The notes: generated by a model from the sequence alone, not told the origin. A DNA stretch of 27,102 nucleotides from a virus (IMGVR_UViG_3300045119_000446:1-27102); one strand, 5' to 3'. Numbered from the stretch's first letter, positions 5,930 to 17,350 are shown. Program-made: numbers and translations.

Positions 5930-5981
5930 GCGCGCCCGGCAATAAGTGTTTGGGCATCATCTGCAGGATGGCCGGGCGCGC
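5930..5981. repeat. 11-bp inverted repeat between exonuclease and recT genes
   Basis: GCGCGCCCGGC (5930-5940) is perfectly complementary to GCCGGGCGCGC (5971-5981), with a 30-bp loop. It occupies most of the 134-bp gap between the two recombination genes. In the leftward transcript it would form a stable stem before the recT ribosome binding site. No T-run is present. Differential expression of the two genes by attenuation, or mRNA processing, is possible. Confidence 0.55.
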
Positions 5982-8211: not shown

Positions 8212-9435
8212 ATGAGCACTCGTCCGATTGCCGACATCAGCATTGGGAAACGTCATCGAGTTGATTTCGGGGACGTTGACGCACTGGCGCGCAGCATCGA
8301 GTTGGTCGGTCTGCTTCATCCGATTGTCATCCGGCCTGATGGTCGCTTGATTGCAGGAGCGCGCCGAGTGCGTGCGTTCAAACAGTTGGGCCGTGACAAG
8401 ATCCCGGTGACCGTGGTCGATCTCGAAAAGATTGTGTTGGGCGAGTATGCGGAAAATGCCGAGCGCAAGGACTTCACGGTAGCTGAAGCGGTCGAGATTA
8501 TGCGCGCCGTGCGCCCGCTGGAGGAAAAGGCCGCGAAGGAGCGGCAGAAGGAGCACGGCAAGACCGCGCCGGGGAAGAAACACTCCGGGCAAGTTGCCCA
8601 CAGTGTCGGCCGTGCCGCCGACAAGGCGGCGAAGGCGACCGGCAAGAAGCGCCGCACGCTGGAGAAGGCCGAAGCCGTGATTGAAGCGGCAGAGCAGGCG
8701 CCTGAATTGTTTGGCGACCTGGCAGAGCGCCTCGCCGAGGATGGGGTCAAGGTTGAGGCTATTCATCGCGAGATGAAGCAACGACAGGAGCGTGCGACTT
8801 ATGAGGCACGCGCGGAGAGTGGCGGTGACGCCGGCGACCTCATCGCAATGGCGGAAGCGGGCCGGCGGTTCAAGGTTATCTATGGCGATCCACCGTGGGA
8901 ATTCAAAGTCTATTCGGGGCGCGGGAAGCAGCGCAGTGCGGATCGTTATTACGACACAAGTGACCTGGAAAAAATCAAGGCGCTGCCGGTTGGGGCGCTT
9001 GCCGCGGACGATTGCGCGTTGTTTCTTTGGGGCGTCTGGCCGGAAATGCCGGGTGCTCTGGAAGTCATAAAGGCGTGGGGCTTCGACTACAAGACGGTGG
9101 CGTTTGTCTGGGTGAAGACTGGCGACAAGGCCGAAATTGTAACGCTCGATGGTGATGGTCTGCATTGGGGGATGGGGTATTGGACGCGTGCCAATACTGA
9201 ATTTTGCTTGTTGGCGACCAAGGGCGCGCCACTGCGGCTGGCGCAGGATATTCATCAGATAGTGCTCGCGCCTGTCGGCGAGCACAGCGCGAAGCCCGAG
9301 GAAGTGCGAGCGCGCATCGAACGATTGCTGGTCGGGCCCTATCTCGAAATTTTTTCGCGTCGACCTGTGCCGAAGTGGACGGTTTGGGGCAATGAAATCT
9401 TCGCGGACGACTCACCGGCGGAGGCGGCCGAATGA
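8212..9435 (+). CDS. ParB-like domain fused to MT-A70 adenine methyltransferase
   Basis: A 407-residue fusion. Residues about 5-95 are ParB/sulfiredoxin-like: 'IADISIGKRHRVDFGDVDAL', then 'LHPIVIRPDGRLIAGARRVR' with the G-x-R-R pattern of that family's nucleotide-binding box. A Lys/Arg/Ala-rich helical linker follows (about 105-205). Residues about 215-395 form an MT-A70-type domain with catalytic DPPW at 226-229, 'LFLWGVWPEMPGALEVIKAW' and 'WTRANTEFCLLATKG'. MT-A70 enzymes transfer a methyl group from SAM to adenine N6, here presumably in DNA. The ParB part may provide DNA binding or nuclease/NTPase activity. It overlaps the next gene by 4 bp (ATGA), pairing it with a nuclease-like protein. 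Confidence 0.9.
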   Translation: MSTRPIADISIGKRHRVDFGDVDALARSIELVGLLHPIVIRPDGRLIAGARRVRAFKQLGRDKIPVTVVDLEKIVLGEYAENAERKDFTVAEAVEIMRAVRPLEEKAAKERQKEHGKTAPGKKHSGQVAHSVGRAADKAAKATGKKRRTLEKAEAVIEAAEQAPELFGDLAERLAEDGVKVEAIHREMKQRQERATYEARAESGGDAGDLIAMAEAGRRFKVIYGDPPWEFKVYSGRGKQRSADRYYDTSDLEKIKALPVGALAADDCALFLWGVWPEMPGALEVIKAWGFDYKTVAFVWVKTGDKAEIVTLDGDGLHWGMGYWTRANTEFCLLATKGAPLRLAQDIHQIVLAPVGEHSAKPEEVRARIERLLVGPYLEIFSRRPVPKWTVWGNEIFADDSPAEAAE

Positions 9436-14124: not shown

Positions 14125-14301
14125 ACGGCTTTATTTCGAGCCGGGCCTCTGGGGTGGCCATCCGTAGCCAAAGCGCACTGGCGGCCCTTAAAACCCGCCA
14201 ATTATCGATCGAAAGCCGGCCACCACTACCACAACACAATGATATCAGCGGCTTAGGTGCTCGCGGCCCACTCGCGTGCTGTGCGCACCGGCCAGCTCGT
14301 T

Positions 14302-14337
14302 AGAACAGATGTAAAACATACCCGTAAGAACAGATGT
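14302..14337. repeat. Pair of AGAACAGATGT direct repeats
   Basis: AGAACAGATGT occurs at 14302-14312 and 14327-14337, 25 bp apart start to start, with similar flanks. The spacing is about two and a half helical turns. The pair could be an activator or regulator binding site ahead of the small-gene operon. Confidence 0.5.
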
Positions 14338-14570
14338 TGAACGTCTGATTTAGTTACAAGCGCAACCAATTGCTCCGAAGCCCACCTGCTCCTGCCGACT
14401 TTTCCCGGCCCGGGCGCGCGTTTGCACAAATCGAGAGCCCCCTCTCATGTTTCCTAAATGGCACAGGGCGAGCGGCGACATTCTTGCTTGATCGTGTGCG
14501 GCTTTGTGCGGATCTTTCCGGTTTTTTCCGGTTGTGCATTTGTTGTTGTTTGATAGATTGTTGATTGCAA

Positions 14571-14588
14571 GCCGGGTTGGCGCCTGGC
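14571..14588 (+). ncRNA. UUGGCG-loop hairpin, copy 1
   Basis: GCCGGG (14571-14576), loop TTGGCG (14577-14582), CCTGGC (14583-14588): six pairs including one G-U. It ends 7 bases before the GAGG ribosome binding site of the gene at 14609. The same loop recurs four more times between here and 17004 on unrelated stems. Confidence 0.7.
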
Positions 14589-14608
14589 ATCAAACGAGGA
14601 GCAAACAA

Positions 14609-14782
14609 ATGACTGAGGGGCAGATCAAATGGGCGCAGCAGCATGACTGGTTTGTTGATGTGCTGGCGAGTGGCGAGGGTGTATTGGTTTGGGATGCTTA
14701 TGTGACGCGCGATGGCGTTCTGCATCAAGACAGTGTGGCGTTTGTGGATTTCCGTAAATTACGGCGGTGGGCGGGATATTAG
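14609..14782 (+). CDS. 57-residue hypothetical protein
   Basis: A small protein starting MTEGQIKWAQQHDWFVDVLA and ending 'VDFRKLRRWAGY'. It is rich in Trp and Asp and probably a small alpha/beta fold; no family is recognised. A GAGGAG ribosome binding site is well placed. The last base of its TAG stop is the first base of stem II of the hammerhead ribozyme, so a terminating ribosome would cover the ribozyme's 5' strand. Confidence 0.75.
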   Translation: MTEGQIKWAQQHDWFVDVLASGEGVLVWDAYVTRDGVLHQDSVAFVDFRKLRRWAGY

Positions 14783-14835
14783 GTCGAAACGGGGCTTTGT
14801 CCCCGTCTGGCGGTTAAGCCGTCACTGACGAGACC
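14782..14835 (+). ncRNA. Type II hammerhead ribozyme 1
   Basis: All conserved parts are present in the type II order. Stem II 3' strand is GGTC (14782-14785), then GAAA (14786-14789). Stem III is CGGGG/CCCCG (14790-14794 with 14801-14805, loop CTTTGT). The UC of the GUC cleavage triplet is at 14806-14807, with predicted cleavage after C14807. Stem I is TGGCGG/CCGTCA (14808-14813 with 14819-14824, one G-U, loop TTAAG). The core CTGACGA is at 14825-14831 and stem II 5' strand GACC (14832-14835) closes with GGTC. Hammerheads cut their own RNA to leave a 2',3'-cyclic phosphate and a 5'-OH. Known bacterial and phage examples are often this open-stem-II form. Confidence 0.93.
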
Positions 14836-14850
14836 AGATGAAACAACGAT

Positions 14851-14870
14851 GGGCGCTTTGGCGAGTGTCC
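14851..14870 (+). ncRNA. UUGGCG-loop hairpin, copy 2
   Basis: GGGCGCT (14851-14857), loop TTGGCG (14858-14863), AGTGTCC (14864-14870): seven pairs, two of them G-U. It is followed by AACAACATAGCGAGGA, whose GAGG is the ribosome binding site of the gene at 14893. It lies 15 bases after the first hammerhead. Confidence 0.75.
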
Positions 14871-14892
14871 AACAACATAGCGAGGATGAACG

Positions 14893-15420
14893 ATGACCAC
14901 CTTAACGAAGATTGACGTAGCGGCATTGCGCAAGTGCGATGACATTTGCGTGCATCTTGGCGCGCGGCATCCGGACGGCCTGGTGCGGGCGATCAAGCGC
15001 AAGGGTTATGGCAACCCCGATCCGTTTGCGACGGACATTGAGCACATTGTCACGGCCAAGGTGGAGATTGATACCTTGCGCGGGCGGCAAGCTCTGGAGG
15101 CTGGCGATGTGCAGTGCTTTGCGATGATTGGCGTTTATCATTCGCAGCATACCGGCCAGTCATCCATCCTCAAGACGCTACGTGCTGGCGACGAAATTAC
15201 ATTCCGATTTTATCCTGACGCCCACACGAACGGTTATGTCGCGATGGGCGGCTTGCATGCCGATGTGCTCTACATGGATGTCCGGCGCGACGGCAAGACG
15301 GTTGCGCGATGGGAGTTGGACATATCGATCACGCCGGCCAATTCGGCTCGCATGTGTCGCGGCGTTCCTAATTCGGAGCATTACAACGAAGAGGCCGAAT
15401 CGGCCCGCAAGGTTGCGTAA
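14893..15420 (+). CDS. Hypothetical protein between ribozyme elements
   Basis: A 175-residue protein starting MTTLTKIDVAALRKCDDICV. The body looks like a beta-rich single domain: 'GLVRAIKRKGYGNPDPFATD', 'FRFYPDAHTNGYVAMGGLHA', 'DVLYMDVRRDGKTVARWELD'. It has no signal peptide or membrane segment. I do not recognise the family. The GCGAGGA ribosome binding site follows hairpin copy 2. It is the first gene downstream of hammerhead 1, so its message would begin at C14807/U14808 after cleavage. Confidence 0.75.
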   Translation: MTTLTKIDVAALRKCDDICVHLGARHPDGLVRAIKRKGYGNPDPFATDIEHIVTAKVEIDTLRGRQALEAGDVQCFAMIGVYHSQHTGQSSILKTLRAGDEITFRFYPDAHTNGYVAMGGLHADVLYMDVRRDGKTVARWELDISITPANSARMCRGVPNSEHYNEEAESARKVA

Positions 15421-15483
15421 GGGCGTGATTGCAGTTGATGGGCGCTCATTTGCGGGCGCCTATCGGCGGCGATCAGGCCGGGA

Positions 15484-15503
15484 GGACATCTTGGCGGATG
15501 TCC
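15484..15503 (+). ncRNA. UUGGCG-loop hairpin, copy 3
   Basis: GGACATC (15484-15490), loop TTGGCG (15491-15496), GATGTCC (15497-15503): seven perfect Watson-Crick pairs. It is followed by ACAACATAGCGAGGA, identical over 15 bases to the segment after copy 2 (14872-14886). The stems differ while the loop and 3' flank are kept, which is the mark of a selected RNA structure. Confidence 0.8.
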
Positions 15504-15526
15504 ACAACATAGCGAGGACAAAGCAT

Positions 15527-15967
15527 ATGGCATACGCAGAACGAAACCGGGCACTAAAGACGCTCCTGGAACAGGCTTTCGGCAAGGGCAAGGTGTCCGT
15601 GAAAGGGCATCGCGGCACGGCGTCGGGATGGGCCACCATCCGCATTGCCCATGCGCCGCGCAACCAGCGTGAGGCGCAGGAATTGCGGGCGCAGGTGTGG
15701 AAACTGATCCGCGCCGGCAAGGTCGAGATTCCGACCTACGGCTATGACGACCCGGGGTCGGACTATGGCTTCGGTAATTGCCTCCATATCCATTTCGAGC
15801 CGTCACGCGAACAGGCCGATTTCCATGGCCCGGAAGCATGGCGGCATCATCTGAGCGCGGCCGACTGGGATGCCCTGCAGGCGCAGGCCGAACCAGCGGC
15901 CAATGAAGAGCCCGCTACCGACCCGTTGGATGATTTCAACTACGTCGGATCGAAACACCACTACTAA
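15527..15967 (+). CDS. Hypothetical protein, possibly LPD29-like
   Basis: A 146-residue protein starting MAYAERNRALKTLLEQAFGK. The segment 'GKVSVKGHRGTASGWATIRI' then 'NCLHIHFEPSREQADF' is reminiscent of small phage and polyvalent-protein domains such as LPD29, but I hold that loosely. The C-terminus is acidic and flexible ('AANEEPATDPLDDFNYVG'). The start follows a GCGAGGA ribosome binding site; a much longer open frame upstream is a shadow of the previous gene. Hammerhead 2 follows 17 bp after its stop. Confidence 0.75.
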   Translation: MAYAERNRALKTLLEQAFGKGKVSVKGHRGTASGWATIRIAHAPRNQREAQELRAQVWKLIRAGKVEIPTYGYDDPGSDYGFGNCLHIHFEPSREQADFHGPEAWRHHLSAADWDALQAQAEPAANEEPATDPLDDFNYVGSKHHY

Positions 15968-15984
15968 GACATGCGGTGGCATAA

Positions 15985-16043
15985 GGACGAAACCGGGCGC
16001 TTGTTATGCCCGGTCGGCCGGTATCGCCGGCCCTGACGAGTCC
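15985..16043 (+). ncRNA. Type II hammerhead ribozyme 2
   Basis: Same architecture as the first ribozyme with different stems. Stem II 3' strand is GGAC (15985-15988), then GAAA (15989-15992). Stem III is CCGGGC/GCCCGG (15993-15998 with 16008-16013, nine-base loop). The UC is at 16014-16015, with predicted cleavage after C16015. Stem I is GGCCGG/CCGGCC (16016-16021 with 16027-16032, loop TATCG). The core CTGACGA is at 16033-16039 and stem II 5' strand GTCC (16040-16043) pairs with GGAC. Every stem is fully Watson-Crick. Both ribozymes are followed by AGATGAA. Confidence 0.95.
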
Positions 16044-16066
16044 AGATGAACTAAGCGAGGAACAAC

Positions 16067-16288
16067 ATGAGTTTTCTTAAATTTGCTGAACGATATCCCA
16101 ACGCCGCGCAAGCTAAGCTCGAGGCGGCTGGCCGCAAGCTTGATGCGTTGCGCAAGCGCGGTATTTGCGCCCATGGTTGGATGCAAGGCCCTCCCGGCAA
16201 GGCAGTCTTGACATGTCTCGACTGTGGCCGGGAATTCGCCTCCAGGGACGAGCACGAAGCGGCGCGCCGCGAAGCACTGTGCAGTTAA
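16067..16288 (+). CDS. Small zinc-ribbon-like protein
   Basis: A 73-residue protein starting MSFLKFAERYPNAAQAKLEA. It has a possible metal site: Cys and His in 'GICAHGW', then CLDC in 'VLTCLDCGREFASRDEHEAA'. This is the spacing of a small zinc ribbon. The GCGAGGAA ribosome binding site lies just before the ATG, 23 bases after hammerhead 2. DNA- or RNA-binding is possible; no family is certain. Confidence 0.75.
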   Translation: MSFLKFAERYPNAAQAKLEAAGRKLDALRKRGICAHGWMQGPPGKAVLTCLDCGREFASRDEHEAARREALCS

Positions 16289-16302
16289 AGGAGCGCCCGA
16301 AC

Positions 16303-16752
16303 ATGACCAAGCGACCATCCTGGATTAGCAATGACCCGAACGCTGTGAAAGTCCTAAAAGCCGCTGATAGGGCCTATGAGAAATCTAGAGCCGACGCTGC
16401 CGGCATCCCGTTAGCCGAAAAGATAGAAGCATATCGGGTCGCGCGCTGCGTTCGGCAAGCGGCTTACAATGACCTGATGGCCGTTGCTCCGGATATGACC
16501 GCAATAGATTTTGTTACGGCATCGAGGGCCAACACTACGGGCAAGGAGAATGCAATGAATGATCCAGACAGCGCGAACGATCAAGGCCCACCGACTGCGG
16601 CCGAGGTTGAGGCCATCTCGCGCGAGCTGATGGAGGCACAAGGCGCGGCGATGGCGCCCGGCCGGCGTGATTTGTTGCAGCGCGCCGCCGTCATGATCGC
16701 GCGATTAGAGCGCGCCTGGCTGGAGGCGAGCGGGCAGAGGGACCGGAGTTAG
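16303..16752 (+). CDS. Hypothetical protein
   Basis: A 149-residue helical protein starting MTKRPSWISNDPNAVKVLKA. A GGAG ribosome binding site lies before this ATG, which I used in place of the longer open frame that overlaps the zinc-ribbon gene. The second half, from MNDPDSANDQ, is preceded by AAGGAG and could be a separate internal start giving a 64-residue product ('EVEAISRELMEAQGAAMAPG'). No domain is recognised. Confidence 0.65.
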   Translation: MTKRPSWISNDPNAVKVLKAADRAYEKSRADAAGIPLAEKIEAYRVARCVRQAAYNDLMAVAPDMTAIDFVTASRANTTGKENAMNDPDSANDQGPPTAAEVEAISRELMEAQGAAMAPGRRDLLQRAAVMIARLERAWLEASGQRDRS

Positions 16753-16769
16753 CTTTGACGGTGGCAAAG
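16753..16769. promoter_or_regulatory. Distant repressor operator O5
   Basis: CTTTGA-CGGTG-GCAAAG differs from the switch-region operator CTTTGC-N5-GCAAAG at one base, and its GGTGGCAAAG matches O4 over ten bases. It lies right after the stop of the 149-residue gene, 254 bp before the secreted protein gene. The repressor may control a promoter here, although no clear -10 is seen. Confidence 0.6.
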
Positions 16770-16775
16770 TGTACG

Positions 16776-16810
16776 AGAATGCGATTGCATTGCAATCGCA
16801 ATCGCATTCT
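16776..16810. repeat. 13-bp inverted repeat of nested GCGATTGC units
   Basis: AGAATGCGATTGC (16776-16788) is perfectly complementary to GCAATCGCATTCT (16798-16810). An overlapping palindrome, GCGATTGCA-T-TGCAATCGC (16781-16799), allows an alternative fold. It sits 6 bp after operator O5. It may be a terminator-like stem without T-run, or a protein site. Confidence 0.6.
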
Positions 16811-16826
16811 GTCACAGCAATGGAGC

Positions 16827-16857
16827 GGGCCGGCGGGATTGGCGTCCCGGCCGGCCC
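16827..16857 (+). ncRNA. UUGGCG-loop hairpin, copy 4 (long stem, no adjacent gene)
   Basis: GGGCCGGCGGGA (16827-16838), loop TTGGCG (16839-16844), TCCCGGCCGGCCC (16845-16857): twelve pairs with one bulged G. GCGAGGAC follows some 25 bases on, as with the other copies, but no usable start codon or ORF comes after it. Confidence 0.65.
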
Positions 16858-16946
16858 TATCCTTCCGCGGGCTAGGTTGCCGCGAGGACCGAAGCAGCCG
16901 GCCCGGCGGACGGAATGATTAAACATTAACAGAGGCCGCCGCTCTT

Positions 16947-16960
16947 GCGCCATATGGCGC
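16947..16960. repeat. 14-bp palindrome
   Basis: GCGCCATATGGCGC is a perfect palindrome in the leader of the secreted protein gene, between hairpin copies 4 and 5. A second inverted pair, TTGCGC (16945-16950) and GCGCAA (16964-16969), surrounds it. It could be a regulator site. Confidence 0.45.
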
Positions 16961-16983
16961 TGTGCGCAATATTACCGGAACCC

Positions 16984-17004
16984 GGGCGGCCTTGGCGGGC
17001 GCCC
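16984..17004 (+). ncRNA. UUGGCG-loop hairpin, copy 5
   Basis: GGGC-G-GCC (16984-16991, bulged G at 16988), loop TTGGCG (16992-16997), GGCGCCC (16998-17004): seven pairs. It is followed after seven bases by GAGG within GCGAGGACAA, the ribosome binding site of the gene at 17024. Confidence 0.7.
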
Positions 17005-17023
17005 AAAATGCGAGGACAATCCA

Positions 17024-17350
17024 ATGAAACCCTTTCGACTCTTAATGCTGGCATGCGTCGTGTTGCTGCCGATTCCCGCGCATGCCGAAGCGCCTCTAAC
17101 CGCAACCGAGCAGAAACAGATAGCTGATCTAACGATGCAAATGAACGTCCAACTGTCCAATGCGGAAAACTATGAAGCAAAATTACAAGCACAAATAGAC
17201 CACGTGAACGCGATAGCCAACAACCGGGTATCTGGTCTGTTGGCCCAGATTCAAATCATAATAGATACCGCCGAAAACCGTGAGATTGTCCGGCGCAGTC
17301 AATGCAGTGTGCCGATGCTGGGGATCGGCTGTCCGCCGCCCGCACGATGA
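17024..17350 (+). CDS. Secreted coiled-coil protein
   Basis: A 108-residue protein with a signal peptide, 'MKPFRLLMLACVVLLPIPAHA'-like over residues 1-21, probably cut after AHA. A long helix follows with Gln/Asn/Ala heptads ('QKQIADLTMQMNVQLSNAEN', 'YEAKLQAQIDHVNAIANN'). Two Cys occur near the end. It would act in the periplasm. With the next two membrane proteins it may form an envelope or lysis-related group, though no spanin or holin motif is definite. The stop overlaps the next start as ATGA. Confidence 0.75.
   Translation: MKPFRLLMLACVVLLPIPAHAEAPLTATEQKQIADLTMQMNVQLSNAENYEAKLQAQIDHVNAIANNRVSGLLAQIQIIIDTAENREIVRRSQCSVPMLGIGCPPPAR

Follow-up and report, generated by a model that had tools for sequence, protein, structure and literature searches.

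Hairpins with a fixed loop and varied stems precede ribosome-binding sites in a group of uncultured soil phages

Known leader structures in phages

Phage T7 has RNase III sites for intercistronic processing and, in the gene 10 leader, a hairpin ahead of the ribosome-binding site (RBS). In the MS2 coat operator and lambda boxB, of which a genome has one or a few, what the protein recognizes includes the identity of the hairpin loop. Here we describe hairpins in an operon of a viral DNA stretch of 27,102 nucleotides (IMGVR_UViG_3300045119_000446:1-27102; 'the window' is this whole stretch). As in T7, processing between cistrons would be combined with a leader hairpin 5′ of the RBS, although the processing here would be by ribozyme rather than at a demonstrated RNase III site. 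If the loops are read in trans, their identity would be part of what is read, as in the MS2 operator and boxB, but the window loops differ from those.

Among named elements, the CUUCGG hairpins found in T4 and other phages come nearest; they carry a fixed six-letter loop on varied stems, lie mostly between genes and occur in many copies in T4 (Tuerk 1988, via PMC8948821). The T4 gene 32 transcript is stabilized by such a hairpin at its 5′ end (PMC8948821, citing Gorski 1985 and Loayza 1991). The window hairpins, too, are intercistronic, repeated and variable in their stems. Unlike them, the hairpins reported here have UUGGCG or UUGCCG loops rather than C(UUCG)G, a variable closing pair, a placement just before the RBS, a lineage-specific loop and ribozyme-type elements upstream. 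Because loop, closing pair and placement differ, we do not count the window hairpins as members of the CUUCGG kind.

In prophages, clustered type II hammerhead ribozymes flank single genes, and cleavage has been shown for three such arrays (Perreault 2011, PMC3088659). The present system is similar in that several hammerheads, two of them in the window, flank single genes of inconstant identity. It differs in its fixed-loop hairpins, which are not seen alongside the hammerheads in the available parts of that report, and in a second upstream element, motif 2, which lacks the hammerhead core. Our search of the open-licence literature turned up neither UUGGCG hairpins in phages nor motif 2, which is weak evidence of absence.

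Five hairpins in the gaps of one operon

The hairpins, RBSs, hammerheads, motif 2 and the conserved non-coding stretch of the operon all lie on the plus strand. Hairpin A (14571–14588; GCCGGG-UUGGCG-CCUGGC, 6 pairs) belongs to the leader of the operon's first gene and ends 7 nt before GAGG (14596–14599), the RBS of a 57-amino-acid ORF (ATG at 14609). Hairpin B (14850–14871; (U)GGGCGCU-UUGGCG-AGUGUCC(A), 7–8 pairs) is followed after 11 nt by the GAGG within a GCGAGGA RBS (14880–14886) of a 175-amino-acid ORF (ATG at 14893). The corresponding distance is 9 nt for hairpin C (15484–15503; GGACAUC-UUGGCG-GAUGUCC, 7 pairs), which precedes the AGCGAGGA RBS (15511–15518) of a 146-amino-acid ORF (ATG at 15527), and 7 nt for hairpin F (16984–17004; GGGC(G)GCC-UUGGCG-GGCGCCC, 3+4 pairs with one bulge), which precedes the GCGAGGA RBS (17010–17016) of a 108-amino-acid ORF (ATG at 17024). 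Hairpin G (16827–16857; 5+7 pairs, one bulge), a long hairpin, has no RBS after it and borders a conserved non-coding stretch on its 5′ side.

A preliminary description of the window had placed five UUGGCG hairpins in the gaps of one operon, four of them ending 7–11 nt 5′ of a GAGG, and both statements are borne out by these positions. The stems, which it called unrelated, are so inside the window, but every stem type is found again in relatives. The gaps do contain the hairpins, yet not as sole occupants, as two type II hammerheads and motif 2 are there too. Rfam has no family matching the hairpins, in agreement with the earlier view that no named RNA family has this form; at the hairpins, motif 2 and 16858–16983, Rfam 15 gave at most weak sub-threshold matches.

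We found no promoter-like site 5′ of hairpin A and no terminator-like site (G+C-rich stem with a T run) at any of the five hairpins, and reject a reading of them as rho-independent terminators. A boxB antitermination hairpin needs a GNRA-like pentaloop, whereas UUGGCG is a hexaloop, and a CsrA/RsmA target hairpin needs GGA in the loop, which UUGGCG lacks; we reject these two readings as well.

The non-coding stretch between hairpins G and F (16858–16983, 126 nt) carries GCGAGGA in an apical loop. It is alike in ten contigs and was found in L125, L126, L129, L152, L165, L167, L171, L189 and L315, in some phages with an optional inserted helix. Its fold as a whole is only mildly better than that of shuffled sequences (z −1.95).

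Pairing at the fixed-loop sites

TTGGCG occurs 48 times in the window versus 29 expected, and because the hexamer is over-represented, the evidence lies in stems and placement rather than in its count. Three of the 48 sites have stems of at least 6 contiguous pairs, to which the two bulged hairpins are added. The other 43 sites (both strands) all have stems of at most 3 contiguous pairs. Among 1,619 TTGGCG sites in unrelated loci, stems reach at least 5 pairs at 1.05% and at least 6 pairs at 0.12% (2/1,619).

Where TTGGCG is followed by AGCGAGGA in the window's relatives (40 sites), at least 3 inner pairs form at 38 sites and at least 6 at 25. None of 119 chance sites with the same arrangement reaches 6. 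Loci without long stems, retrieved from IMG/VR by the TTGGCG...AGCGAGGA pattern, served as the negative control. Across 33 distinct sites picked by loop and RBS alone, the six inner stem positions are paired in 89% of cases, compared with 49% (maximum, 61%) in 2,000 shuffles. All ten relative records have between 1 and 5 copies, on one strand, and a reversed-pattern control gave 0. These results support a genuine RNA element in the UUGGCG hairpins, one whose loop is constrained, whose stems are free to vary and which is tied to RBSs.

Hammerhead ribozymes and motif 2 upstream

A search of the window with Rfam at the gathering threshold gave no matches, and only a permissive search revealed two elements that we predict to be type II hammerhead ribozymes. 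Hammerhead 1 (14782–14843; core CGAAAC...GUC...CUGACGA; 30.8 bits, E = 0.0013) lies just 5′ of hairpin B, about 43 nt of sequence separating that hairpin from the predicted cleavage site after C14807. Hammerhead 2 (15985–16051; 33.7 bits, E = 2.3 × 10−4), with predicted cleavage after C16015, lies just 5′ of the gene at 16067 and is followed by a GCGAGGA RBS and that ORF, without a UUGGCG hairpin. Both copies score below the RF02276 gathering score of 37, as does one relative at 35.4 bits, and the assignment is based on core and context rather than on the Rfam threshold. The core elements CGAAAC, GUC and CUGACGA are present in both, and stem II reads GGUC/GACC in one and GGAC/GUCC in the other, a compensatory difference. 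Both window copies agree with the type II definition of a CUGANGA, GAAA and NUH core in which stems I and III are closed and stem II is open. Related and other loci contain 20 distinct copies.

Motif 2 (15417–15485; 53.8 bits, E = 9 × 10−16), immediately 5′ of hairpin C, consists of a GAUUGC/GCGAUC helix, a long covarying helix and a 3′ GCCG tail, and is apparently an undescribed RNA structure, with no family match in Rfam 15. The local fold, hairpin C included, has a z score of −7.2. Among the matches listed, motif 2 occurs in more than 100 viral contigs, a minority of them by chance; its usual place is after a stop codon and ahead of an RBS, and further copies lie at L127:6521–6583 and in L236, L260 and L257. 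Whole-record searches of G015 and G016 gave 15 matches each, some of which are opposite-strand readings of a palindromic copy already matched, leaving about eleven or more same-strand copies.

Covariation in the inner helix is strong, with 299 double-change cells versus 96 in shuffles. Conservation of the outer helix and of the GCCG tail is not evidence, because the search pattern fixed both, but in a few copies that do not follow the pattern, changes in the tail seem to be compensated. The pairings of outer helix and tail overlap and may therefore be alternatives. Motif 2, which is apparently undescribed, reaches about eleven copies in some genomes and occupies the same slot as hammerheads, is a direct candidate in the search for new ribozymes through gene neighbours, the approach behind earlier classes.

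Relatives and the reuse of leaders

Uncultured soil phages of one group have such a hairpin before nearly every small gene of the operon, mostly with a hammerhead or motif 2 just 5′ of it. Ten IMG/VR loci were retrieved via the 175-amino-acid ORF, and seven of these (L125, L126 and L129–L133) keep four or five UUGGCG hairpins. In L127/L128 and L134, the 175-amino-acid gene is kept and the UUGGCG hairpins are absent; in their place L134, a sister lineage, repeats an RBS hairpin of another kind, GCCUC-GCGGACAACA-GGGGC and variants, at 5971, 6633 and 7657. Homologous loci that keep the genes and lose the hairpins, which the preliminary description held would speak against its reading, thus exist in part, while the other relatives retain the hairpins.

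Leaders recur in new settings. The 5′ arm of hairpin A is identical in L171, L178, L184 and L291, and hairpin C is found again in L129, L165 and L315. The hairpin B leader, mostly after a hammerhead, lies 5′ of at least eight unrelated ORFs, and the module is therefore portable. Conversely, the 175-amino-acid gene has a hammerhead and hairpin B upstream in some phages and motif 2 and hairpin C in others. The hairpin element does not belong to any particular gene.

Near-identical leaders in front of unrelated genes, and one gene behind different leaders across phages, are also what would be expected if the leaders were conserved patches of DNA for the exchange of gene cassettes, with sequence likeness as a by-product. 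We consider such a recombination border very improbable, because the stems differ within a phage and yet pair. In L126, hairpin G has changed from GGGA/UCCC to GGGG/CCCC, a second compensatory change among the sites converts GCCUCU/AGAGGC to GCCUCC/GGAGGC, and hairpin F has altered stems in L125/L126 with pairing retained. Kept pairing argues against DNA homology alone.

Another hammerhead leader of the window's group continues with GCCGC-AUGGC-GCGGC and then an RBS (L125:4019, L129:8649, L152, L167, L171 and L192); the loop of this hairpin in the L129 copy is AUUGGC.

Outside this group, bacterial and archaeal genomes totalling 257 Gb gave 37 matches to motif 2 plus TTGSCG, none with a stem of more than 3 pairs, and we read these as chance rather than as true modules. 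Neither blastn with three leader stretches nor tblastn with the 175-amino-acid protein gave a convincing match in cultured phages. The window terminase shares 48% identity with its Rhizobium phage RHph_TM3_14A counterpart, and the first 50 kb of that phage contains no motif 2 or hammerheads by the patterns used.

Lineage-specific loops

Each lineage has its own loop: the window's group has UUGGCG, and four other phages have UUGCCG. In longer stretches from ten phages, UUGCCG occurs five times in G020 (with one CUGCCG), 3+1 times in G021, twice with an RBS in G022 and three times in G023, on different stems and before RBSs. Three further phages probably have loops of their own, each assigned from few copies: AUGGC in G024 (three; L400:11212, 11418 and 11666), CGUCAA in G019 (three; L401:3041, 4282 and 5416) and CGGCAA in G018 (two; L398:3694 and 4457). 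The independent loop changes are few, because G020–G022 have proteins in common. Among 116 motif-2 copies gathered regardless of downstream sequence, the commonest next loops are UUGGCG (9) and UUGCCG (3). A scan of 367 loci for loops repeated on different stems before RBSs likewise returned mostly UUGGCG and UUGCCG.

One-base loop changes common to all of a phage's copies, on different stems, point to recognition in trans. The loop-binding factor proposed in the preliminary description fits a loop that is nearly uniform within each phage and different between lineages. That proposal missed the hammerheads and motif 2 upstream, which bring processing into consideration. Clustering of phage proteins over the ten compared records gave none common to all ten, and so no phage-encoded loop-binder was identified.

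The loop might instead contact RNA, pairing with the upstream element, with the stretch 16858–16983 or with a host RNA. UUGCCG exactly complements CGGCAA of motif 2, and CGGCAA is itself a loop in another phage. UUGGCG would need CGCCAA, which is absent from the window's motif 2, so pairing between these two is rejected; with no consistent partner found, we regard a loop-to-RNA contact in general as unlikely.

The main rival to reading in trans is a structural one, in which the hairpin separates the RBS from ribozyme structure and protects the 5′ end while the loop serves as a stable or fast-folding cap, a role also proposed for CUUCGG, with no trans factor. The placement of the hairpins, directly followed by an A-rich spacer and then the RBS, agrees with this, and the CUUCGG hairpins of phages offer a precedent, CTTCGG being the second most common loop in the 367-locus scan. 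However, the loop-closing pairs vary (G-C, U-A, C-G and A-U), unlike those of C(UUCG)G, and different phages have fixed different loops, which stability alone does not predict. We therefore see this explanation as possible, though doubtful.

A proposed leader module

Our preferred reading, towards which we lean with some reserve, is a cis-acting, portable leader module in which an upstream cutter is followed by a hairpin that shields or insulates the RBS and whose loop is read in trans. In order, the module would comprise a type II hammerhead or motif 2, the fixed-loop hairpin, an A-rich spacer that often reads CAACA, the RBS and a small ORF. The hammerhead or motif 2 would cut the long transcript between genes, leaving a hairpin near the 5′ end of each piece that may shield it against 5′-end-dependent decay and keep the RBS free of structure from upstream. 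A trans-acting factor, protein or RNA, would read the loop and so tune the stability or translation of the operon genes jointly. The computation shows the stems, the fixed loops and their differences between lineages, the linkage to RBSs, the hammerhead cores and the reuse of modules; the cutting by hammerhead or motif 2, the shielding of 5′ ends and the trans factor with its effect are inferred.

Several observations count against this model or limit it. Hairpin B is about 43 nt away from the predicted cut, stem I of the hammerhead would itself cap the new 5′ end, L127/L128 manage without hairpins, both window hammerheads are under the gathering score, and the ten compared records have no phage protein in common. 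The module is not obligatory, because hammerhead 2 lacks a UUGGCG hairpin and hairpin G lacks an RBS. A more specific version would make motif 2 a new class of phage RNA, self-cleaving or processed in another way, that takes the hammerhead's place between genes, and would have the hairpin bind a regulator peculiar to each phage, its specificity having shifted along with all loop copies of the lineage. This version is speculative and, as a whole, rather unlikely.

If the module is real, some phages assemble the leader of each gene from standard RNA parts (a cutter, a loop-fixed hairpin and an RBS), and the loops would form a phage-specific code that is open to swapping and testing.

Other features of the window

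A direct repeat (CGTTAGAACAGATGTAAAAC / CGTAAGAACAGATGTTGAAC; 14298–14317 and 14323–14342) lies upstream of the operon and may be an operator. The gap 5′ of hairpin G also contains a 13-bp perfect inverted repeat (AGAATGCGATTGC / GCAATCGCATTCT; 16776–16810). Elsewhere, an ORF at 8212–9432 encodes a fusion of two domains, ParB N-terminal and MT-A70 methyltransferase, in that order.
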